A stretch of DNA of 64,000 nt from assembly GCF_002964975.1 (NCBI RefSeq), contig NZ_PSZM01000001.1:124001-188000 (forward strand). Direction: 5' to 3'. Origin of the DNA: Apibacter adventoris. Lineage in GTDB: Bacteria; Bacteroidota; Bacteroidia; Flavobacteriales; Weeksellaceae. Below are positions 50,519 to 62,730 of the stretch, in pieces; positions within the stretch are counted from its first letter, which is position 1, and every line of letters begins with the position of its first letter. A model generated the notes under the pieces. The model made no database searches and was not told the origin of the DNA. It saw only the letters and a program-made list of their open reading frames with translations. Position numbers and translations under genes: made by a program.

Positions 50519-51583
50519 CTATTTTATTATTGCAGATTCTAGTAATTCACTAAAGTGAGAGTTCTGGTTTCTAGTATCAAATTTTTCAGAGAGTAATTTT
50601 GCTTGTTTATAATAGTAATTGTATAGTTCTGAAAGTTCATACTCTCCAGATTCTAAAAAAAGAGGATGTTGTACATTAATTTGTAAGTCTTTTTTTGTTC
50701 CTTTTCGGAAAAGTGGTAAAATATTTTTGGAAAATATAAATTTTAAATAATCATCTGCATCTAGTTCCCATGTGGAGTATTTTTCATAAAAAGAAAATGC
50801 TCTTTTTTCATCATTATCTATCAAGTAGTGAATGAGTAAGGAAATACTAATTAAAATAGAGCTGTCTGTTTCATCCATTTTATTTAATTCTTCCATTGCT
50901 TTTTCGAAAAATAAAGAAGCTCTTTCATCCTTTTTTATGTTGAGATAGTATGCAAAATTGCAAAAAGTTGCAAAAGGCATATGAGCACAGGTAAGTTTCT
51001 TGTTTATAAGGTCATTTGCCATCATTAGGGCTTCTTCTATATTACCTTTTCTCAATTCTTCTCCTACTTTCGTGTCTAATTCACAGGCAGGACAATGGGA
51101 CATATCATCTCTCTGCTCTTTTTCTCGTAATTGTATATATTTATCTACTTCTTCATGTAAACCCAAAAATTGTTTCCATGCTATAACAATGCTATAATAT
51201 CCTCTCAGACTATAGCCATTTTTTAACATTCTTGATTTTAAATCTTCAATTATATTTTCTATTTGTTCTTTAGATATATTCGCATTACAATATGAAGCTT
51301 TAGCCATCCATTTGTATTCCCATAAAAACTCACTCTCATCAAATATATCCGGATTTTTATCATAGGCATCCAATATCCATGAAAATGCAGAAAAACTTTC
51401 TACACAATGAGATGTACATACTTCTTCTGATATTAATCTCAATCTAAAATCAAAGCCCCATTCAACATCTTGATTGCTATCGGCTAACTGAATTGCTTGT
51501 TTTAGTATATTAATCCTATCTTCTACAGCAGTGATTGTTTCTAATTTTAATTCTAATTTTTGTAACTCTAAATTATAATTCAT
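50519..51583 (-). CDS. TPR-like protein, paralogue A
   Basis: 354 residues, all-helical with repeated pairs of amphipathic helices, no signal peptide. It begins MNYNLELQKLELKLETITAV. One helical module (ILKQAIQLADSNQD...RLRLISEE) resembles the units of its upstream neighbour. Conserved between the two are MSxCxxCE (Cys164, Cys167) and KKLTCA (Cys199) before PF.T, possibly a metal or redox site. I do not recognise the family. It lies 16 bp after the paralogue and ends 183 bp before gabD. Likely a cytoplasmic protein-interaction scaffold, by analogy only. Confidence 0.75.
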   Translation of the reverse strand: MNYNLELQKLELKLETITAVEDRINILKQAIQLADSNQDVEWGFDFRLRLISEEVCTSHCVESFSAFSWILDAYDKNPDIFDESEFLWEYKWMAKASYCNANISKEQIENIIEDLKSRMLKNGYSLRGYYSIVIAWKQFLGLHEEVDKYIQLREKEQRDDMSHCPACELDTKVGEELRKGNIEEALMMANDLINKKLTCAHMPFATFCNFAYYLNIKKDERASLFFEKAMEELNKMDETDSSILISISLLIHYLIDNDEKRAFSFYEKYSTWELDADDYLKFIFSKNILPLFRKGTKKDLQINVQHPLFLESGEYELSELYNYYYKQAKLLSEKFDTRNQNSHFSELLESAIIK

Positions 51584-51599
51584 AGTATTTATTGATTGA

Positions 51600-52793
51600 T
51601 TAATGAACTTGATTGAATTCTATTTCTTTTTTTAAAAGGGTATTAAAATTATCGGTTTGGTTTCTGGCATCAAATTTATCGGCTAATTTTTGAGCTTGTT
51701 CTAAATAATAGTTATATATTTTATGACTATCATACTTTTGATTGGAATTATAAAACGGAAACTCTGAACTCAATCCTTTAATATCCAATATATTATCTTG
51801 TTGGAATAATTTTAGAAAGTTCAATGATATATTAAATAATGCGCAATCTTCTGCTCCTAACTGCCAGTTGGCATATTTTTCAAATAATAATAATGCATGT
51901 TCTTTATCAAAATACGAGGCATAATTAATTAATCTGGAAATTCCCTCTATAATATTAGGCTCAGCATTTTCTTGAATTTCATTTAACCCTTTATTGAAAA
52001 ATTCATCTGCATTTCCTACTTGGCATTTGTTAAGATAATAAGTTAAATAGGTATAGGTTTCAAAGGGTACTTCGGCACAAGTCAGTTTTTTTATCTTCAT
52101 TTCATTCATATCTTGCAAGGCTTCTTCTATTTGACCTGCTAATAATTTGACTCTTATTTTAAGATTCTGTTCACAAGCTTCGCAATCTGACATTCCATCT
52201 CTTCCATAATTATCTCTTTCTTTAATTGTATGAATAGCTGATTCTATATATCCGCGAGATATGTCCCATTCAATTTTCGGAACATAATAGGCACCTAATC
52301 CATATCCGTTTCGTTCTAGTCTAATTTTTAAATCATTAAGCACTTCTTCTATCTGTGCATAGGATACGTTTGAATTATCAATGGCAGAATTTGCTAGCCA
52401 TTTATATTGCCATAGTACTTCATCTTCATTAAATCTATCTGGATATGTGTCAACCGCATTCAATATCCAGGTCATAGCAGGAAAGCTATCTATACATTTT
52501 GCAGTAGAAAGAGTTTCTTCTTCTATTAATTCTTTTCTTAAGTAAAAACTTTCTTCCAAATCCTTTGCAGAATCTGCTAGTTGAATTGACTGCTTCCATA
52601 ATTTAATTCTGAAGTCTACATTTTGTTCTTCTTCTATTAGCTGATACCTTAAATCTATTCCTTCATAATAGTCATTATTCATATCGGCTATATCTATTGC
52701 TTGTTTTAAAAGTTGTTTTCTTTCTTCTTGATCTTTTGTTTCTTCTATTTGAAGGCTAAGTTTTTGCAGTTCTAATCTATAGTTCATTTTCAT
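51600..52793 (-). CDS. TPR-like protein, paralogue B
   Basis: 397 residues, cytoplasmic, helical. It aligns with the downstream paralogue over most of its length but has one extra N-terminal module of about 43 residues: QLLKQAIDIADMNNDYYEGI is followed by the similar LWKQSIQLADSAKDLEESFY. Shared motifs are MSDCEACEQN (Cys204, Cys207) and KKLTCAEVPFETY (Cys239). Met3 (52787) matches the start of the paralogue better than Met1. Upstream lies TATTTTTG at 52861-52868. Function unknown. The pair looks like a tandem duplication. Confidence 0.75.
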   Translation of the reverse strand: MKMNYRLELQKLSLQIEETKDQEERKQLLKQAIDIADMNNDYYEGIDLRYQLIEEEQNVDFRIKLWKQSIQLADSAKDLEESFYLRKELIEEETLSTAKCIDSFPAMTWILNAVDTYPDRFNEDEVLWQYKWLANSAIDNSNVSYAQIEEVLNDLKIRLERNGYGLGAYYVPKIEWDISRGYIESAIHTIKERDNYGRDGMSDCEACEQNLKIRVKLLAGQIEEALQDMNEMKIKKLTCAEVPFETYTYLTYYLNKCQVGNADEFFNKGLNEIQENAEPNIIEGISRLINYASYFDKEHALLLFEKYANWQLGAEDCALFNISLNFLKLFQQDNILDIKGLSSEFPFYNSNQKYDSHKIYNYYLEQAQKLADKFDARNQTDNFNTLLKKEIEFNQVH

Positions 52794-52922: not shown

Positions 52923-54290
52923 TTGAAAATTTTTACGCAAAAATTATTTTTACAAATTGATAATTCTCCATTAATTATATTCAGAATTTTATTAGGCCTT
53001 TTATTATTTATAGAATCATTCGGTTCTATTTTAACCGGATGGGTAAAAAATAATCTTATTACACCTAGAATTTTATTTCCTTTTATAGGTTTTGAATGGC
53101 TTCATCCACTACCAGGGTATGGTATGTATTTTTATTTTGCATTAATGGCTATTTTAGGATTATTTGTAATGATCGGCTATAGATATAAGGCAAGCCTTTT
53201 TTGCTTTTTGTTATTATGGACAGCACAATATCTCATGCAAAAGACTTCTTATAATAATCATTATTACTTTTTAATTCTTATTTGTTTTATAATGTTATTT
53301 CTTCCAGCTAATGCTTATTGCTCATTTGATTCTAAAAGAAATAAACGTTTAAAATCTCTTTTTATGCCTCAATGGTGCTCTTATGTATTAATGTTACAAA
53401 TTGCTATTTTATATTTTTACGCTACAATAGCTAAATTATACCCGGATTGGCTGGATGGCACTTTTACTCGTTTGTTATATTCTAATAAAACTAATTTTCC
53501 TGTAATTGGTAAATACTTCACTGAAAAATGGTTTTATTTACCTATTGCATATTTAGGTATTTTATTTGATGGATTAGTTGTCCCTTTATTACTATGGAAG
53601 AAAACACGTACAATCGCATTAATTGCAAATATAATTTTTCATTTATCTAATTCTTTAATTTTACAAGTAGGGATTTTCCCCTATTTTGCTTTAAGTTTTG
53701 TGGTATTTTTTTATCCTCCAGAAACTATACGGAGAATTTTTTTTAGAAATCGCCCTACGTTACAACCATACATTGATAATGTTAATTTCAAAGGAATAAA
53801 TGTTTTAAAATATCTTTTTATTCCTTACTTTATGATACAGATATTTTTACCTTTACGCCATTGGCTTATTGAAGGTGATGTTTTTTGGACGGAAGAAGGG
53901 CATAGACTCAGTTGGAGAATGATGTTGAGAAAAAGATCAGGTTATCCTATTCAATTCTTAATTATTGATAAAAAAACAGGAAAAGAAGTTAAAAATACTT
54001 ACTCGAAGAATAATCTTTCTATTTCATTTTCTTTGGACCATCTACTTACTGAAAAACAAAAAAATAAAATAAACACTAGTCCTGATGTGATATGGCAGAT
54101 GGCACAATATATTAAAAAAGATTTCAAGCAAAAGGGTATAGATGTAGCTGTTTATGCAGATTGTTGGGTCAGTATAAATAATCATCCTTACAAAAGGCTA
54201 ATTAATGAGAAAACAGATTTGGCAAATGTGAAATGGAATTACTTTACCCATAGTCCATGGATTATATTATATGAGGATTACAGGAAGTAA
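52923..54290 (+). CDS. HTTM-domain membrane protein (vitamin K-dependent gamma-carboxylase-like)
   Basis: 455 residues, TTG start (KIFTQKLFLQIDNSPLIIFR). The N-terminal about 300 residues contain at least six transmembrane helices of the HTTM domain. Features include RILLGLLLFIESFGSILTGW, FLLLWTAQYLMQKTSYNNHY and the carboxylase-like WLDGTFTRLLYSN, then PLRHWLIEGDVFWTEEGHRL in the lumenal part. The remaining about 120 residues are soluble. Animal homologues carboxylate glutamate with vitamin K; bacterial functions are largely unknown. It is divergent from the TPR pair and convergent with the EamA transporter. Confidence 0.88.
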   Translation: MKIFTQKLFLQIDNSPLIIFRILLGLLLFIESFGSILTGWVKNNLITPRILFPFIGFEWLHPLPGYGMYFYFALMAILGLFVMIGYRYKASLFCFLLLWTAQYLMQKTSYNNHYYFLILICFIMLFLPANAYCSFDSKRNKRLKSLFMPQWCSYVLMLQIAILYFYATIAKLYPDWLDGTFTRLLYSNKTNFPVIGKYFTEKWFYLPIAYLGILFDGLVVPLLLWKKTRTIALIANIIFHLSNSLILQVGIFPYFALSFVVFFYPPETIRRIFFRNRPTLQPYIDNVNFKGINVLKYLFIPYFMIQIFLPLRHWLIEGDVFWTEEGHRLSWRMMLRKRSGYPIQFLIIDKKTGKEVKNTYSKNNLSISFSLDHLLTEKQKNKINTSPDVIWQMAQYIKKDFKQKGIDVAVYADCWVSINNHPYKRLINEKTDLANVKWNYFTHSPWIILYEDYRK

Positions 54291-54350: not shown

Positions 54351-55298
54351 CTATTTTTCATGTGTTAGAATTATACCTAAAACAGCTGTAATGATCAGCA
54401 CTATACCCAGTAACATTTTTAAAGTAAAGGGCTCATTAAATACCCATATTCCTATTATTACCGCAGTAAGTGGTTCAAAAGCTCCTAGTACCGAGGTTAA
54501 TGTGGAACCAATTTTCCTGACTGCACTGACTAAAGCTACTGTAGACACTATAGTCGGTATAATTGCTAAAGATATCATATTAATTACAGAAGATGTATCC
54601 TGTAATGGAAACCATTGAAAAGTTCCTCTTAGAAAACAAAAACACAATAAATATATGACTCCTATGATTTGGATATAAAAAGTGAATTTTAATACCTGCA
54701 TATCTTTAACCGAGGTTTTTACAGAAAAAACTAAAAACATAGCATAGAAGATTGCTGCTGAAAGAGCACAACTTATTCCTTTTAAATTTATTTTTCTAAA
54801 ACCTTCACCTGAAGATAGCAATGCTACTCCTAATATAGCTATTAGAATAGCAACAATATTTTTAGGAGTTATTTTTTCATGAAAAAATACTCCCATTATA
54901 ATTGTAACAAATACCGGATACATAAAGTGCACAGTTGTTGTTACTCCTCCTCCCAAAAAGGTATATGAAAGGAAAAAAAGCAGCGAACAGGTGTTACATA
55001 AAATGCTTAATAAGATTAAGGTTTTAAATTCTTTCCAAGATATTTTAAAATTAATATTTTTGATAAGCATTAATAGTGCAACCGATAAAGCTGCTAAAAA
55101 AAAACGATAAAATAATACTGAATCAAAATGTAATCCTTTATTCATTAAAGGAATACTAAATAAAGGAATTAATCCGTAGGTAACAGAGGAAATTATAGCA
55201 CTTAATACTCCACTAGTGGAAGACTTTCTGCTATATTTCCTTGCTAATATTCTGGATTTTCTTGGAATTCTTAATAAAATATATCGGGCTGATCTCAT
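54351..55298 (-). CDS. EamA/DMT-family transporter
   Basis: 315 residues with ten transmembrane helices arranged as two EamA repeats (about 30-165 and 175-312). A basic N-terminal extension of about 28 residues (MRSARYILLRIPRKSRILAR) precedes helix 1 and is unusual; no other Met offers a better start. Conserved signals are FYRFFLAALSVALLML and, in repeat 2, GAFEPLTAVIIGIWVFNEPF. Substrate unknown; the family exports amino acids or metabolites. It begins 58 bp after the Hsp90-like gene on the same strand, so it may be in the same operon. Confidence 0.87.
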   Translation of the reverse strand: MRSARYILLRIPRKSRILARKYSRKSSTSGVLSAIISSVTYGLIPLFSIPLMNKGLHFDSVLFYRFFLAALSVALLMLIKNINFKISWKEFKTLILLSILCNTCSLLFFLSYTFLGGGVTTTVHFMYPVFVTIIMGVFFHEKITPKNIVAILIAILGVALLSSGEGFRKINLKGISCALSAAIFYAMFLVFSVKTSVKDMQVLKFTFYIQIIGVIYLLCFCFLRGTFQWFPLQDTSSVINMISLAIIPTIVSTVALVSAVRKIGSTLTSVLGAFEPLTAVIIGIWVFNEPFTLKMLLGIVLIITAVLGIILTHEK

Positions 55299-55356: not shown

Positions 55357-57168
55357 TTATGAGTTTAAATCTAAATCTCCCATGAAGTCAGTCATTCCTA
55401 AAACCATAAGCTGATATAGCGAATTATTAAAGACTTCCATTTCCTTTTTATTTATTGGATATCCTCCTAACATAAGTGCCTGCACATACATTATATGAAT
55501 GATTGCTTCAAAAATAAAGGAATCTTTAATATGAAAAAGTTTTTGCACTATCTCATTATCTTTATTAAAACATAAGGTAGGCATATTGTCTTCTTCTTTT
55601 TTAATAAAGGTATGGAGGGTAGAAGCAAATGGATTCGCTGATTTGGAAAGATTCTGAATATTTTTATTATTCATAGCCTCATCATTTGCTACATAAATTG
55701 CAGGGGTATCTACCGGATCAAATTCTTTGATTTGTGCTTTACAATAAAATAATTTCAATAAGGTATTTGCTTTTTTTTCAAAATTTTGATATTCTGGCTT
55801 ATAAGTAGTGATAACTTCTCCAAAATTTTCTAATATATCCTGCGGCGTGATTTTCCTAAAATGAATCTGAGGCATTACAATTTTCATTTTCTCGATTAGG
55901 TCTGTTTCAAAACTATAAGCTGTGTTAACAACTGTTTTTCCCTGTGAGCCTGCAATCCTTCGTATTTGTCTAAAATCATCTAATGAAGGTGTATAATAGA
56001 TAATTTCATTATAAGTTCTAAGAGATAAAAAATTCATCATCCCTTTATTGGTTTCAAAAGGAATATAATCAATAAACATTTTTAATAAGTCATTATCCTC
56101 TACAGCTAATGCTTTAATATATAAATGATGAATTTTAATGATTTGACTAAGTGTCTGCGTATCTGCAACTGTAAGGTATTTTAAATAATCTTTAAAACAA
56201 AGTGTAAGTTCTTTTCTGGCTTTTACCATTTGTCCATCGTTCATTAATGCTTCACGTGATGCAGTAGGGCGTAAGGAATTGGTGTTAATTATACAACGTA
56301 CAAATGTTGACCATTCCGGAAGTAATCCCTTGGCATCTTCACATAAAAACATTCTTTTTAAATAAATTTTATTTTGCTTGGTATTTCCTGAAAATTGAAC
56401 TTTATGGGGTATGATATAAGCAATTCCTTGAATATCACCAGTTTTAGAACATAACTTAAATGAGTCTAAAAAATTAGTAGTAAATGTTTTTTTTCCAAAT
56501 TTTAATAATTCTTCTTTTGTACTATCGTTATTTAGCCATACCGGATCTTTATCTACTAATATTTCTTTTCCTTTATTAGATATAAAATTAATCTGTATAG
56601 GCAATGCATCTCCATAGTATAGTACATTTTTCTTTATTTCATCTTCTTTAAAAAGGGTTTTCCATTCTTTTTTTGGAGTAAGGATAACCCGGGTACCTAT
56701 CATTTGCATATTCTCTGTAGGCTCTACTGTATAAGTTCCATCGGCTTTTCCTTTCCAGCATATTCCTTTATTTTTTAGAAGTGAACGAGTTTCTACTATA
56801 ATTTCATTACTAACAACCAGACAGGAAAGCATTCCTATTCCAAATTTACCTATAAAATCTTTTTCATCTATCTCTCTTTTTTTGGAACTTTGCCCTATTA
56901 CGGAAAGAAATTGGTGTACTTCTTCTTCTGAAAGACCTATTCCGTTATCTTCAAATATTAATTGTGGAATTTCTTGTTCTTCTTTTAGGAAAATATTGAT
57001 CTCTCCTTCAATTTCATCTAAATTTTTCCTTGCAGTTACTGCATCAATTCCATTTTGTAAAAGTTCTCTTATAAATACGTTGGGTGCGCTGTAAATATGT
57101 TCTGAAAGTAATTCAATCATTCCTTTCAGGTTTACCTGAAATAAATATTTATTATCTTCTGCTTGCAT
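55357..57168 (-). CDS. Hsp90-family chaperone-like ATPase, short divergent form
   Basis: 603 residues. The GHKL ATPase domain has helix FIRELLQNGIDAVT (Glu35, Asn39), DNGIG (74-78) and the ATP lid GKFGIGMLSC (about 107-116). The middle domain keeps LLPEWSTFVRCIINTNSLRP and the catalytic-loop arginine in SREALM. The C-terminal region is shorter and ends MGDLDLNS without MEEVD. The sequence is clearly more divergent than standard HtpG, so it is probably a second, specialised Hsp90. Gene order is Sel1-repeat protein, this ATPase, then EamA transporter, with 52 and 58 bp gaps. Client proteins are unknown. Confidence 0.9.
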   Translation of the reverse strand: MQAEDNKYLFQVNLKGMIELLSEHIYSAPNVFIRELLQNGIDAVTARKNLDEIEGEINIFLKEEQEIPQLIFEDNGIGLSEEEVHQFLSVIGQSSKKREIDEKDFIGKFGIGMLSCLVVSNEIIVETRSLLKNKGICWKGKADGTYTVEPTENMQMIGTRVILTPKKEWKTLFKEDEIKKNVLYYGDALPIQINFISNKGKEILVDKDPVWLNNDSTKEELLKFGKKTFTTNFLDSFKLCSKTGDIQGIAYIIPHKVQFSGNTKQNKIYLKRMFLCEDAKGLLPEWSTFVRCIINTNSLRPTASREALMNDGQMVKARKELTLCFKDYLKYLTVADTQTLSQIIKIHHLYIKALAVEDNDLLKMFIDYIPFETNKGMMNFLSLRTYNEIIYYTPSLDDFRQIRRIAGSQGKTVVNTAYSFETDLIEKMKIVMPQIHFRKITPQDILENFGEVITTYKPEYQNFEKKANTLLKLFYCKAQIKEFDPVDTPAIYVANDEAMNNKNIQNLSKSANPFASTLHTFIKKEEDNMPTLCFNKDNEIVQKLFHIKDSFIFEAIIHIMYVQALMLGGYPINKKEMEVFNNSLYQLMVLGMTDFMGDLDLNS

Positions 57169-57220
57169 AAACTACTTTTATTATGCTAATATTTTTTTTA
57201 TGAAATTAATATTAAATTCT

Positions 57221-59740
57221 TTATCTTCTTCTTCTTTCTCTTTTTCCTGTTATTTTGCGAGCTTGTTCATGACCATTATCTGATGCTTTCTGGTACCACA
57301 TCATGGCTTTAATTTCATCTTCGGCAACTCCTTTACCCATTAAGTAACAATTTCCTAATTCAAATTGTGCATCTGCATGTTCTGTTTCTGCAACTTTGGT
57401 TAATTGGACAATTCCTTTTTCTAAATCCTGATTAGTTCCTTCTCCTTCCAACAGCATAAGAGCCGTATAATATTCTGCTTGTGTATTACCTTCTTCTGCT
57501 GCTTTTGAAAGCCATCGATAGGCTTCCTCTTGATTTTGTTCTGTACCTATTCCATATTTGTAGGCTGTACCTAACCTGTATTTAGCTGCCGTATATCCTT
57601 CTTCTGCTCCTAAGGTATAATATTTGAAAGCTTCATTAGAATTTTCTTCTGTTCCTATCCCATATTCATAACAAACTCCTAATCCTTCTGATATCACTCC
57701 TTGCTGCTCTGCTGCCAGATAATATTCAAATGCTTTATCATATTCTGGATTTTCCTGTCTTCCATCATTATACAAATAGTAGTCCCCTATAAGCAAAGCG
57801 GCATAGGGATAGCCTCTTTCAAAAGATCTGTGAAGCCAATCTAACGCTTTTTCGAAATCTCTTTCTATCAATCCATAATAGTAATAATAGCCTACTTTAT
57901 ATTGCGCAAAGGAATATCCTTGTTCTGCCGCCTTCATCATATATTCCATCACTTTTTGTGCATCAAATTCTAGCCCCCCATATTCTGTTTCATAAGCTAA
58001 GGCTAATTCTATAAAGGCATCTCCGTAATTATACTCTATAGCTTTTTTATAATTTTCTATAGCCAATTCCGGATTTTCAGGAACTCCTATTGCATATTTA
58101 TAGGATCTTCCAACATTGTAAATTCCTTCAATATTGCCACCTTCTGCAGCTTTTTGATACGCCTGAAATGCATTGGAATCATTTTTTTCTCCTACTAACC
58201 CATCTTCTTCATAATAGCCTATTTTATTATAAGCATATACATATCCGTTTTCTGCAGCTGTTTTAAATAAGTCATAGGCTTTCTGATAATCTTTTTCAAC
58301 TCCAAATCCATCTTCATAACAAAAGGCTAATTCAACTTTAGCATATTCTGAACCTTTTTCTATCGCTTGATTAAAATATTCTATAGCTTTTTCCGGATTT
58401 GCTTCTTCTGCTTTTGTTATACCTATTCTATAATAATGCCCCACCAATTCAATACCATAAATATGACCTCTCTCTGCTGATAATTGATATAGTTCAAAAG
58501 CTTTGTAATAATCAGGATTTTTTCCGATATCTCCTCTTTCATACATAAGCCCTAAGCGATAAGGCGCATAGGAATCTCCTAATTCTATGGCTTTTTCTAA
58601 TAATTTTTGAGCTCCTTCTATATCAGGCACTTCTTGATTTAACAGTAAATGTGATTTTTCTGTCATCGCTCGGGTACTTTCTTCTTTCACTGCCCAATCT
58701 AAATAAATCTGTCCCTTTTCCAGATCTTTTACAGAATCTTCATACAAGTATATCAGAGCTAATTCAACTAAGGAATCTTCAAAATAATATAGCTTAGCTT
58801 TTTCATGCCATTCTATTGATTTTTCTATTGATTTATTTCCATCCTGAGTGTAGTAATAATAACGACCTAACCAATTGGCTGCATAAATTACTCCATAGTC
58901 ATAGGCTTCTTCTAATAATTTAATTCCTTCTGTTTTATCGTAACCGGAAACTCTATCATTTAATATGTTTATCCCTAAAATATAACAACAGAAAGGGTTA
59001 TTATATTTTATTCCCTCTATTAAAGCTTCTTTTGCTTTTTCAATATTTTCTTCTTTGTATAAATAAAATTCTCCTAATAAATGATAGGACTTTTCTGATT
59101 CTTCTTTTCTTGATTTATTATATTCTTCTATAGCCTCAAGAATTTTATTATTATCGGTTTCTGTATAATAAATTACATTCAAAAGATAATTATCTGCATT
59201 GTGATACCCTAACTCTTTAGATTTTTCAATCCATTTCTTCCCCTCTATTTTATTTTCTTCTTCCCCCCTCATTGCAAAGTATAAATTATAACCATATATT
59301 GCCATGCAAGCAGGATCTTCTAACTCTATACCCGTTAAGAGATATTCTCTTTCTTTTTCTCTATTCCTATAAGGCCTTCGGGCTGTTTCTAGTATATAAT
59401 CTCTTTCAGCATAAGCTCTTGGAAAGTTATTTTCTATAAACTTATCATTTATTTCTTCATTTTTTTTGAACCAAAATTTATAATCTGTTTCATCTAAGCC
59501 TGAAGAAAAATAAAGATTACTGTTTTTTTTATATAATTGAGTGTATAATTTTTTTATTTCTTCGGTAACTTTATCTTCAGCAAGTGCTAAATCACACAAA
59601 ACCAAACCCTTTAACCATTCATCTTTATTTAAAAAATCTTTTTGTTCTAGTAATTTTTGCGTTTCTTCTTCAATAGATTGATTACTTAATTGACTAAATA
59701 ATTCTTGATAACGAACTTCTAAAATAATTGGTAGTGTCAT
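57221..59740 (-). CDS. Sel1-like repeat protein
   Basis: 839 residues, no signal peptide. After about 130 residues of helical N-terminus, about 18 Sel1-like (TPR-related) repeats of 36-40 residues run to the C-terminus. Typical units contain A.YRLG..Y..G ... A..W...AAE.G: ADAQFELGNCYLMGKGVAED, AYRWLSKAAEEGNTQAEYYT, ALLIGDYYLYNDGRQENPEY. The last 10 residues are basic (GKRERRRR). Such arrays form superhelical scaffolds for protein-protein contacts. Placed directly before an Hsp90-like gene, it may act as a co-chaperone or client adaptor, as TPR proteins do for eukaryotic Hsp90. That is inference. Confidence 0.88.
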   Translation of the reverse strand: MTLPIILEVRYQELFSQLSNQSIEEETQKLLEQKDFLNKDEWLKGLVLCDLALAEDKVTEEIKKLYTQLYKKNSNLYFSSGLDETDYKFWFKKNEEINDKFIENNFPRAYAERDYILETARRPYRNREKEREYLLTGIELEDPACMAIYGYNLYFAMRGEEENKIEGKKWIEKSKELGYHNADNYLLNVIYYTETDNNKILEAIEEYNKSRKEESEKSYHLLGEFYLYKEENIEKAKEALIEGIKYNNPFCCYILGINILNDRVSGYDKTEGIKLLEEAYDYGVIYAANWLGRYYYYTQDGNKSIEKSIEWHEKAKLYYFEDSLVELALIYLYEDSVKDLEKGQIYLDWAVKEESTRAMTEKSHLLLNQEVPDIEGAQKLLEKAIELGDSYAPYRLGLMYERGDIGKNPDYYKAFELYQLSAERGHIYGIELVGHYYRIGITKAEEANPEKAIEYFNQAIEKGSEYAKVELAFCYEDGFGVEKDYQKAYDLFKTAAENGYVYAYNKIGYYEEDGLVGEKNDSNAFQAYQKAAEGGNIEGIYNVGRSYKYAIGVPENPELAIENYKKAIEYNYGDAFIELALAYETEYGGLEFDAQKVMEYMMKAAEQGYSFAQYKVGYYYYYGLIERDFEKALDWLHRSFERGYPYAALLIGDYYLYNDGRQENPEYDKAFEYYLAAEQQGVISEGLGVCYEYGIGTEENSNEAFKYYTLGAEEGYTAAKYRLGTAYKYGIGTEQNQEEAYRWLSKAAEEGNTQAEYYTALMLLEGEGTNQDLEKGIVQLTKVAETEHADAQFELGNCYLMGKGVAEDEIKAMMWYQKASDNGHEQARKITGKRERRRR

Positions 59741-59937: not shown

Positions 59938-62730
59938 ATGAAGTGGAAAAAAATTTCTTTTTGGATAGTCTTATTGCTTTTTTTAGGAGGTATTTTAGAT
60001 TTGGGACTAGGAAAATGGATAAATAACAGTCTTCCTGCTTTCATTAATGAAAAAAACGATACACCTTATAATTTCAATTATTCAGGAGTTTCTTATTCTT
60101 TATTGAAAAGAAAAATGGTTATAGAAGGGATTAGTATTTTTCCAAAAATTAAAAATATTGGAATATATAATATTAAAATAAAAAAAATAACCATCCATGG
60201 AGTTCATTTTTTCACTTTTTTTTCTAAAAAAGATTTAATTGCTGATTTAATTGAAATTGATAGCCCTGATATTATTATTAATCAAAAGAAAAACGATAAA
60301 ATCAAGAAAAAAAAGATTAAAACTTATGATATAAGTAAATCTATACAAATTAATAATTTTATTTTAAAGGATGGTAAACTGCAATTATTTATTTCTGAAA
60401 ACCATAAAAAAATTGTCTCTTTAAATAACCTAAACATCAATTTATCAGGAGTTATATGGGATATTGCAAATACGGAAAAAAGAATTCCTATTACTTTTAA
60501 AAATGAAAAACTAAGTGTTGATAATATTTTTTATCAACTTAATGATCTACATTATTTAAAGTTGGCAAAAATTAAAACTGATAATGGAAATATTGAGGCT
60601 GAAAAGATTGAAATCAAATCCGATATTACCCCTGAACAATTTAAACAAAATAATTATTTACAGAAAAGTCTTATAAACATTCAAGTTCCTGCTGCTGAAA
60701 TAAAAAAATTAAATTGGGGATATGATTCTTTAGGCATTTTTTATGTTACTTCTTCTAAAATAGAGGTTGATTCTACTCAGATATTAATTAGTTCTAAAAA
60801 TAAAATTTCTAAAAATAAAATTACAACTTCTTATATTGATCGCATTATCCCTTTCAACTTACGTATAGATACTATACAAATTCTAAAATCCAAAGTTAAT
60901 ATAGAGAATAGTCTGGCAAGTGATAATATTAATATTTTAATGAAAAATATTAATAATAAACTGAATGATAAAATTACAATTAATGAGCTTAAGTTATCAA
61001 ATACCAATATTAAATTATATTCACCTACACATAAAATTTCTTCTAAATCACAATCTAGGTTTACTTATTATTTTGATGATATTTTAAATATTAAAAAATT
61101 TTCTATCGAAAATGCAAATATTAAATACTATAACATTAATAAAATTAATGTTTTAAAAATGGACAATATCAATTATACAATGAACGATATTGTGATTAAT
61201 ACGTTAATAACCAATACTTCTAAAAAATTACCATTTACTTATAGTAATTACAAATTACAAGCAAATAATATATTTTATTCGACCCTTAAAAATTATACAT
61301 TTCATTTAGATAAGATGATGTTAGCTAATGATGCTTTTATTGCTCATAGTTTAAAAATAATTCCTAAAATATCGCGGATATCTTTTACTAAACAAAAATT
61401 ATCTAAATATTTGTTTAAAGCTGACATTAAAACTATAAGTATTCCTAAAATTAATTGGAATACTGATAATAATGATTTTTTTATTCAAGCACCGACTATT
61501 ATTATTGATAATATGTATGCTATTCTTATTCATAATAAGAATTCTAAATCAATAAGCAAAAAATTACAATTGAACAATTCTGATTTAGGCCTTAATTTAC
61601 ATATTAATGCCTTTGTTATAAAAAATTCAAATATAGTTCAATATGATGCTTTAAAAAAAACACTTTTATTTTCTTCAAAAAATATTAATGTTACAGTAAA
61701 TGATATTATTTTTAATAATAATTCTGAAAATATTACGCTATCAATTCCTTTTTCTTTTTCAAGATTTCATTTAACTGCTAATTCTATTTATTATAATTTA
61801 GGCTATCATTCTTTGTATATAGGATATATAGATTTTAAAAATAATTCGATTAATCTTTCTAATTTGAAAATGTTTCCTATAAATAGCCAAATAATATTCA
61901 TGAAAAAAAAAGGAATAGATGCGTATACTATTAGTCTAAACAAAATGGATATACCTAATCTTGATTTAGGTTTACCAAATAATGAAATTAAATTTACTGC
62001 GCCTTTAATTACTTTTTATAGATTATATACAACCATCCATCAATATGATATACCAAAAGATGAATATATAGCAGTATATAAACCTTTATTTAATAAAAAA
62101 CTTCATGATTTGAAATTTAAACTTTTTTTGGGACAAATCAACTTAATAAAATCCTATCTTTCTTATGAGGAAGAGTCTTTGGACAAAGGTACAGGAAAAA
62201 TATTTTTTTCTGATATAAATGCTACTATTAAAAATGTTTCCAGCGGATACAAGGTTAATTCCCTTCCTGATGTAAGTGTTGACTTTAAAAGTAAATTTAT
62301 GGATTCAGCTCAGCTATCCGCATTATGGAAATTTAATGTAATGAATACTCAAGGAAATTTCTCTGTTTTGGGAACAATCAAGCATCTACCTGCACAAAAA
62401 TTAAATATGTTTATAAAACCCTATTTGCACGTTTCTGCGGATGGAATTATTGATCAGACCTTATTTAACTTTAAAGGGAATGAAAATACAGGAAATGGCT
62501 CTTTTGGCATGGAGTACAAAGACCTTAAAATTTCTATATATAAAAACAACGGAAAGGAAGAAAAGAAATTATTATCCTCTCTTGCCAATCTTGCTGTGAA
62601 GGATAACAATGGTGATTCTTTAAAAATATATACAATTAAAGAACTAACAAGGTCTAAAGATAAATCTTTTTTTAATTTTTTATGGAAAATGACACTTAGT
62701 GGTCTTAAAGAAGCTTTATTTATATTTTAA
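59938..62730 (+). CDS. AsmA/DUF748-like envelope protein
   Basis: 930 residues. One N-terminal membrane anchor (about 6-23, ISFWIVLLLFLGGILDLGLG) is followed by a long repetitive beta-strand region. Short repeats such as IEIDSPDIIINQK, LQLFISENHKKIVSLNNLNI and INIQVPAAEIKKLNW recur with strand spacing typical of AsmA-like or DUF748 bridge proteins, thought to carry lipids between membranes. Late stretches (INATIKNVSSGYKVNSLPDV; GNFSVLGTIKHLPAQKLN; FIKPYLHVSADGII) match the DUF748 end. Asn/Lys/Ile composition is very high, as elsewhere in this genome. Single gene. Confidence 0.7.
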   Translation: MKWKKISFWIVLLLFLGGILDLGLGKWINNSLPAFINEKNDTPYNFNYSGVSYSLLKRKMVIEGISIFPKIKNIGIYNIKIKKITIHGVHFFTFFSKKDLIADLIEIDSPDIIINQKKNDKIKKKKIKTYDISKSIQINNFILKDGKLQLFISENHKKIVSLNNLNINLSGVIWDIANTEKRIPITFKNEKLSVDNIFYQLNDLHYLKLAKIKTDNGNIEAEKIEIKSDITPEQFKQNNYLQKSLINIQVPAAEIKKLNWGYDSLGIFYVTSSKIEVDSTQILISSKNKISKNKITTSYIDRIIPFNLRIDTIQILKSKVNIENSLASDNINILMKNINNKLNDKITINELKLSNTNIKLYSPTHKISSKSQSRFTYYFDDILNIKKFSIENANIKYYNINKINVLKMDNINYTMNDIVINTLITNTSKKLPFTYSNYKLQANNIFYSTLKNYTFHLDKMMLANDAFIAHSLKIIPKISRISFTKQKLSKYLFKADIKTISIPKINWNTDNNDFFIQAPTIIIDNMYAILIHNKNSKSISKKLQLNNSDLGLNLHINAFVIKNSNIVQYDALKKTLLFSSKNINVTVNDIIFNNNSENITLSIPFSFSRFHLTANSIYYNLGYHSLYIGYIDFKNNSINLSNLKMFPINSQIIFMKKKGIDAYTISLNKMDIPNLDLGLPNNEIKFTAPLITFYRLYTTIHQYDIPKDEYIAVYKPLFNKKLHDLKFKLFLGQINLIKSYLSYEEESLDKGTGKIFFSDINATIKNVSSGYKVNSLPDVSVDFKSKFMDSAQLSALWKFNVMNTQGNFSVLGTIKHLPAQKLNMFIKPYLHVSADGIIDQTLFNFKGNENTGNGSFGMEYKDLKISIYKNNGKEEKKLLSSLANLAVKDNNGDSLKIYTIKELTRSKDKSFFNFLWKMTLSGLKEALFIF

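Follow-up and report, generated by a model that had tools for sequence, protein, structure and literature searches.

Does a bacterial Hsp90 ever have a partner protein of its own? To our knowledge, an Hsp90 with a dedicated partner has so far been known from eukaryotes only. The question is raised by a locus in a 64,000-nt stretch of the Apibacter adventoris genome (RefSeq assembly GCF_002964975.1, contig NZ_PSZM01000001.1, positions 124,001 to 188,000; hereafter the window), in which a preliminary description had pointed out the gene for an 839-aa Sel1-repeat protein (57221..59740, minus strand) 52 bp upstream of the gene for a 603-aa Hsp90-family ATPase (55357..57168, minus strand), and had proposed that the two form a linked scaffold and ATPase. 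The coordinates and domains agree with our annotation (Pfam Sel1, 3.6e-72; NCBIfam NF010683, PRK14083 for the Hsp90), as do the two further TPR-like genes (50519-51583 and 51600-52793) and the transporter (EamA, 54351-55298) that had been noted nearby. The central proposal survives in altered form: a genetically linked helical-repeat partner of this Hsp90 is indeed conserved, but in general it is the family of TPR-like proteins encoded at 50519-52793, which we name TPRC, and not the Sel1 protein, which is found in one Bacteroidota clade only.

In the relative G420 (genomes and loci are cited here by our own G and L handles) the gene directly 3' of the Hsp90 gene is 40% identical to that at 50519-51583, and similar genes follow Hsp90 in Paenibacillus, Listeria and Streptomyces. 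We compared 80 loci, the best of at least 562 relatives found by scanning genome contigs with the Hsp90 alone. TPRC genes were recognized with a first-pass profile made from 8 seeds, none of which came from the 80 loci, and with a final profile re-trained on its own hits. A TPRC gene lies directly downstream of Hsp90 on the same strand in 72/80 loci, distributed over 8 phyla (Bacillota 39, Myxococcota 11, Bacteroidota 10, Planctomycetota 8, and Acidobacteriota, Deinococcota, Thermodesulfobacteriota and Actinomycetota 1 each), and the first-pass profile alone recovers 71 of these 72. The median gap between the two genes is -1 bp (range -19 to 203), and the stop codon of Hsp90 is overlapped in 40 of the 72 loci. 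Three of the 72 TPRCs are partial, two of them cut by a contig end (L088, L113) and one broken in frame (L104). As for the other eight loci, L086 and L089 stop at a contig end, L125 has a convergent TPRC gene 383 bp away, a decayed copy lies 9 kb off at L137, the genomes of L098 and L112 contain TPRC at another site, and L134 and L138 are discussed below. TPRC can also be kept though unlinked, 112 kb away in G590 and on another contig in G593. None was found at 54 canonical HtpG loci, where 1.5 kb beyond the matched part was covered. Among the neighbors within 8 kb, only TPRC and Sel1 occupy a fixed place; ABC transporters and sigma factors are recurrent but scattered. Because the same arrangement is met with in further genera and phyla, it is not due to chance, and the linkage in relatives, on which the idea of a paired system had been made to depend, is borne out for TPRC.

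The distribution of the two genes in 660 sampled genomes agrees with their proximity: TPRC occurs in 103 of the 104 genomes with an intact Hsp90 of this type and in 3 of the 556 without it. In Bacteroidota, NF010683 scores above its cut-off in 2/395 genomes, and the same two have strong TPRC matches (>300 bits); 29 further genomes yielded only weak TPRC matches of at most 34 bits. A full Hsp90 was found in 45/149 genomes of Paenibacillales, all 45 with an adjacent TPRC gene (gap up to 60 bp), and two more genomes of this order contain TPRC, one together with an Hsp90 split in two frames (G695) and one as a decayed TPRC accompanied only by an HtpG-like gene (G647). In Myxococcia the Hsp90 is present in 57/116 genomes and the adjacent TPRC in 56, the exception being G852, in which the Hsp90 match ends 33 bases from the contig end. 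Among 26 chosen genomes, TPRC accompanies Hsp90 in 20/20 cases and is found in 0/6 relatives that lack it. The tree distances of Hsp90 and TPRC are correlated (0.87 over 60 loci, 0.82 for the 1277 between-phylum pairs, at most 0.16 in 2000 label shuffles, with an identical nearest neighbor in 34/60 cases), although this correlation, like the co-occurrence counts, ignores shared species history; it indicates joint inheritance, not contact.

The Hsp90 that TPRC accompanies is distinct from canonical HtpG. The window protein passes the NF010683 model ("HSP90 family protein") with 644.8 bits against a curated cut-off of 455 and fails the canonical HtpG model NF003555 with 184.9 bits against a cut-off of 371; identity between the two kinds is 19-21%. 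It is not the only HtpG homolog of its host, whose genome contains a separate HtpG-like gene on contig C40 (G000:C40). A quick tree of 100 proteins, with fine detail limited by long branches and biased composition, places 71 NF010683 members (Shimodaira-Hasegawa-like approximate likelihood ratio support 99) and 27 Bacteroidota HtpGs (100) on separate sides of its branches. A second HtpG-like match below the NF010683 cut-off was found in 12/14 (one weak and fragmented; none in G586 and G588) and in 45/45 Hsp90-bearing genomes of two samples, and the presence of this second gene in most such genomes argues for a specialized task of the NF010683-type protein over general folding. In a search with the Hsp90 model alone, the Hsp90 of C. 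glutamicum, a species used in the laboratory, also scores above the NF010683 cut-off. A contig of Salmonella Infantis SARB27 (L068:7992-12139) encodes another divergent Hsp90-like protein (611 aa) and, after it, a 769-aa protein that matches TPR weakly; the former falls outside both Hsp90 groups of the tree on a long branch.

For structure and conservation we used 67 of 81 Hsp90 rows and 82 of 88 TPRC rows, the dropped ones being mostly near-duplicates or fused copies. The ATPase residues E35, N39 and D74 and the middle-domain R305 of the Hsp90 are invariant in 67/67 rows, in keeping with the initial observation that the ATP-binding and middle-domain motifs are intact. In E. coli HtpG we take E34, N38 and D80 to be the GHKL ATP-site residues and Arg336 to be the middle-domain arginine. 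The AlphaFold model of the window protein (mean model confidence, pLDDT, 89.4) aligns over residues 11-589 with residues 7-626 of the HtpG chain 9a6t_B (Z 32.3, root-mean-square deviation (rmsd) 5.5, 529 aligned); 9a6t_B is itself an integrative model, and the window Hsp90 model aligns equally with solved Hsp90s. According to this model, the protein has the full Hsp90 fold, with N-terminal, middle and C-terminal (dimerization) domains. The preliminary description had taken its C-terminus to be short, but the last segment comprises 26 residues, compared with 24 in E. coli HtpG, and the residues missing relative to the latter are mainly internal (E. coli 34-120, 200-240, 400-440 and 480-520). 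In comparison with 28 HtpGs, 42 of the 92 near-invariant positions of the Hsp90 are group-specific; C116 is found in 63/67 rows and C476 in 64/67, and both are found in 0/28 canonical HtpGs. A set of contact and client sites of E. coli HtpG (K238, G262, K354, R355, E466 and others) proved uninformative, as the residue number did not fit at G262 and most of these positions differ among other HtpGs, and we draw no conclusion from them as to DnaK binding.

TPRC itself lacks a dedicated Pfam or NCBIfam family. For the two TPRC proteins of the window neither database gives a match at E 0.1; in the family as a whole, 0/82 rows match NCBIfam at E 0.001, and no Pfam family takes in TPRC as a whole, the best-represented being TPR_14 in 5/82 rows, with others, mostly TPR, in 1-3 members each. 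The AlphaFold model of copy 1 (pLDDT 97.2) is a nearly all-helical solenoid of the TPR superhelix type, and by this model TPRC is a family of TPR/PPR-like helical repeats. Its profile matches include designed PPR and TPR chains, and its best solved structural matches are APC5 (Z 22.5, rmsd 4.9, 321 aligned), MalT domain III (Z 21.2) and regulators of the Rap/NprR type (Z 17-18), Z values of a size that for repeat proteins indicates fold, not function. Foldseek produced no match at E 0.001 or better, and no solved structure could be singled out as a specific relative.

Among the most conserved TPRC residues are D35, R47, D159, C164, C167, C199 and the C-terminal D336, R338 and N339. The three cysteines behave as a set, since all are present in 73/82 rows and none in 9/82, with no mixed row, and we infer from this pattern that they may form a metal or redox site. 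Copies without cysteines occur at 6 loci, 5 of which also have a copy with the full set. Most loci (70/80) contain 1 to 4 full-size copies. In Myroides (L070, L071, L072, L077) up to four TPRCs stand in tandem, and the extra copies lack all three cysteines. In the window, copy 1 (354 aa, 50519..51583, minus strand), identified by the family profile and the census, has the CxxC and the later cysteine (C164, C167, C199), and copy 2 (397 aa, 51600..52793, minus strand), found with the TPRC profile, is its tandem paralog with 38% identity and has an insertion near the N-terminus that resembles a repeat of its flanking sequence. Two Actinomycetota proteins are extended by extra TPRs, and in two Clostridia metagenome-assembled genomes (L103:12783-15068 and L142:6519-8789) the TPRC frame runs on into DUF4026, a possible fused output domain.

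By sequence and models, then, a TPR-superhelix protein is inherited together with an Hsp90 whose ATPase residues are intact and which has all three domains, and the gene of the former usually overlaps or touches that of the latter. We consider it rather probable that the two constitute a dedicated bacterial Hsp90 machine, in which an ATP-driven Hsp90 clamp works with a dedicated, co-translated TPR adaptor or co-chaperone. The Hsp90 dimer would cycle with ATP as HtpG does; TPRC would bind it and bring or hold a narrow set of clients, and might in addition set its ATPase rate. Through a metal or redox site, the three cysteines could tune or switch TPRC, and in one Bacteroidota clade the upstream Sel1 solenoid may serve as a scaffold or be a third subunit. 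In the window, two bystander genes would have parted the TPRC genes from Hsp90, with both TPRC copies kept. Both the physical binding of TPRC to Hsp90 and the clients are putative. A bolder form of the proposal would make TPRC the first dedicated co-chaperone of a bacterial Hsp90, a near-obligate TPR adaptor with a three-cysteine metal or redox switch matched by C116 and C476 of the Hsp90, in a deep-branching Group C lineage (see below); this we put forward only tentatively, as a doubtful though attractive possibility.

Several observations weigh against a dedicated adaptor. An EEVD-type eukaryotic C-terminal tail was found in 0/67 Hsp90 rows, and docking of the TPRs to such a tail cannot be assumed. 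At L134 and L138 the Hsp90 has no TPRC within the 7-10 kb of downstream sequence that was covered, and in G595, one of the 20 Hsp90-bearing genomes of the chosen set, the sole TPRC is decayed. Conversely, the myxococcal genome G754 has an intact orphan TPRC (L176:4513-5691) and no Hsp90 of either kind according to the NF010683 model. The best-80 sample favors Hsp90s similar to the query, and common ancestry of the hosts may contribute both to the co-occurrence and to the distance correlation reported above.

The strongest rival, which fits much of the same evidence and to that extent also counts against an adaptor, reverses the roles of the two proteins: TPRC (and Sel1) would be obligate clients, and the Hsp90 a private chaperone that folds or activates TPRC, with TPRC doing the real work, for instance as a regulator. 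The co-occurrence and the gene overlap fit this equally well, the variable copy number of TPRC and the loss of cysteines in some copies are what clients might show, and in fold TPRC is similar to TPR proteins that sense peptides or act as regulators, among them MalT domain III, Rap and NprR. On the other hand, most TPRCs lack an output domain named in Pfam or NCBIfam, the orphan in G754 stands without its supposed chaperone, and, as a weak argument, TPRC is modeled as a compact superhelix with a pLDDT of 97. On balance we regard obligate clienthood as possible but unlikely.

Less probable still, and in our opinion improbable, is that both genes belong to a single accessory pathway or stress response and spread jointly, their products not touching each other. 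In favor of this are the patchy occurrence of the Hsp90 within the genus of the window (4/9 sampled genomes) and a suggestion of horizontal transfer, in that the Hsp90s of G289 and Flexithrix, both Bacteroidota, fall outside the Bacteroidota clade of the tree. However, in 8 phyla only these two genes are kept close or overlapping, and outside Bacteroidota the loci have no third gene in common, which favors a tight pair over a loose pathway.

The preliminary description had also considered a stress or conflict system. We searched 81 upstream regions for CIRCE (controlling inverted repeat of chaperone expression) and CtsR-like sites and found none better than in simple letter shuffles; there is no CIRCE in the window, and scans for promoters and terminators gave no more than expected by chance. 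With PADLOC 2.0 the cassette proteins gave only weak and partial matches: the Hsp90 hit the ATPase part of TmtA (1e-9), and one TPRC hit PbeD (2e-4). Of 118 flanking proteins listed for 65 of the 80 loci, 93 were compared and include no recurrent defense gene; each PADLOC model matches at most two of them at E 1e-10, and the Pfam families listed for them are mixed, none being present in more than 4/93. As neither a CIRCE or CtsR site nor a recurrent defense neighbor was found, neither classical heat shock nor phage defense is favored, and a role in defense or conflict now appears very improbable.

A few observations nevertheless point towards defense, in addition to the patchy distribution. 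The Hsp90-TPRC pair is present on a 6.6-kb unverified and unannotated fecal scaffold named "Bacteriophage sp." (MT837560.1, L067:1915-6488), with a long TPRC as in Actinomycetota; it alone runs counter to the two negative findings just given, but the protein upstream looks like a sigma factor, and the scaffold may thus be chromosomal and misassigned. The Hsp90 is also matched by two short fragments labeled "Listeria phage". Against defense, a scan of viral contigs gave only 11 hits, all of them distant and partial. The Pseudanabaena plasmid ABRG53a (L066:5932-8565) encodes a distant 877-aa Hsp90-like protein whose C-terminus weakly matches the CAP12/Pycsar TIR domain (E 0.001, below the cut-off), with an adjoining TIR-domain gene and a TPR gene downstream, possibly an Hsp90-TIR defense protein. 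In Listeria (L063:11879-12625) a gene of the SUKH/SMI1-KNR4 family follows two TPRC genes. Three papers touch briefly on two locus tags of this Listeria region, assigned to L063 by gene order alone: the tags appear as a fragment adjoining fri, among listed heat-shock genes and as a hypothetical protein subject to selection (PMC3534079, PMC10393277, PMC6901971). The gene flagged as under selection in patient isolates, lmo0941, is by its position probably one of the two TPRC genes.

That the Sel1 protein is the main partner of Hsp90 and TPRC a mere neighbor is scarcely credible: it does adjoin Hsp90 in a Bacteroidota clade (gap -1 to 14 bp in 10/11 loci, 307 in the other) with its length held at 826-873 aa, and its N-terminal part is not found in the 5 sampled genus members that lack the Hsp90, yet no Sel1 match at E 1e-15 occurs in the stretches covered at the other 69/80 loci, nor beside L112 and L004, two Bacteroidota-hosted Hsp90s outside the clade. 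The window protein passes PF08238 with 236.7 bits (cut-off 30.7). A colinear homolog just upstream of Hsp90 is present in 11/80 loci, all from Bacteroidota, as well as with 834-839 aa in the relatives G448, G432, G460 and G420, and one clade of the tree (support 100) has the gene in 13/13 members. A search with the N-terminal 240 residues found it in 8/20 chosen genomes, every one with the Hsp90, with incomplete sensitivity, as it missed Bacteroides G585, where the gene exists. Since it is confined to one Bacteroidota clade, the Sel1 gene is, as far as sequence comparison tells, a clade-specific third gene, an add-on to the pair.

In the window the Sel1 gene is the first of the cassette, and the TPRC genes are 2.6-4.8 kb downstream of Hsp90, separated from it by two genes that are probably bystanders. 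One encodes an EamA-type transporter (54351..55298, minus strand; Pfam EamA), which is also present in G460 and is replaced by other genes in the genus relative G448. The other (52923..54290, plus strand; Pfam HTTM 2.7e-70) encodes an HTTM protein, similar to the lumenal domain of vitamin K-dependent carboxylase, and has the same position between Hsp90 and TPRC in the genus relatives G448 and G460. Divergent from the Sel1 gene lies a gene for a 930-aa protein (59938-62730, plus strand) with no Pfam match at E 0.1, the position of which is kept in G448, G432 and G460.

Comparison with known systems suggests that the Hsp90 branch has been described before, and that its near-obligate TPR partner appears undescribed; our search of the open-access literature, with subscription papers outside it, found no paper on the Hsp90-TPRC pair. 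The family probably corresponds to HTPG Group C of Chen et al. 2006, an assignment we base on species and lengths and not on their figure. According to the accessible text of that paper, Group C comprises second copies beside another HtpG in Firmicutes, Actinobacteria and Bacteroidetes, is the shortest of the groups in variable regions and is postulated to be at the base of the family, and the HTPG2 proteins of B. fragilis and S. coelicolor have 588 and 615 aa, respectively (PMC1525184). In our set the Hsp90s of the Bacteroides loci L075 and L076 have 588 aa and those of Streptomyces loci 612 and 622 aa, the host of the window likewise has another HtpG copy (on C40), and the window Hsp90 is clearly shorter in four internal stretches, which may correspond to the four variable regions in which Group C is shorter than Groups A and B. 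What can be seen of the text by Chen et al. mentions no partner gene, and the word "operon" is absent from its main part (PMC1525184). With canonical HtpG (NF003555) the group shares the Hsp90 fold and the ATPase residues; it differs in model score, in sequence (identity and group-specific positions as given above) and in TPRC, which was found at none of the 54 canonical loci.

The closest bacterial folds to TPRC are MalT domain III (1hz4: Z 21.2, rmsd 5.2, 314 aligned) and the Rap/NprR type (4i9c: Z 18.3, rmsd 5.5, 302 aligned). Identity to TPRC is only 9-10%, however, most TPRCs lack any other named domain, and TPRC has its conserved cysteine set and a C-terminal FDxRN motif. Likewise, the window Sel1 protein has 8 Sel1 stretches above threshold and differs from Sel1-like repeat proteins (PF08238) in general by the near-fixed length of its type and its fixed place upstream of Hsp90 in one clade.

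In the accessible parts of the literature it is stated that no co-chaperones of bacterial Hsp90 have been identified (PMC7926864), that an ortholog of Hop is absent from bacteria (PMC7688965), that Hop, Aha1 and p23 have no apparent bacterial orthologs (PMC8082187), and that no specific function of HtpG was evident in a streptomycete (PMC3603443). Against this background we hypothesize that Hsp90-TPRC is a bacterial analog of the eukaryotic pairs of Hsp90 and TPR co-chaperones (Hop/Sti1, FKBP51/52, PP5, Tom70). The likeness consists in a TPR solenoid paired with an Hsp90 and concerns the way of working only: Tom70 is among the structural matches of TPRC (Z 13.7), but APC5, MalT domain III and Rap/NprR are closer in fold, and we do not claim homology to Hop. 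The evidence speaks well for some bacterial Hsp90s having a partner protein to themselves, from an unnamed family of at least 8 phyla to which we draw attention here, and the case will be of high interest if binding is shown. With a widespread two-gene pair in culturable bacteria it could be tested why eukaryotic Hsp90 gained co-chaperones and how HtpG picks its clients. If TPRC is indeed a co-chaperone, bacteria would have come to pair Hsp90 with TPR proteins either independently of the eukaryotic co-chaperones or earlier than these.

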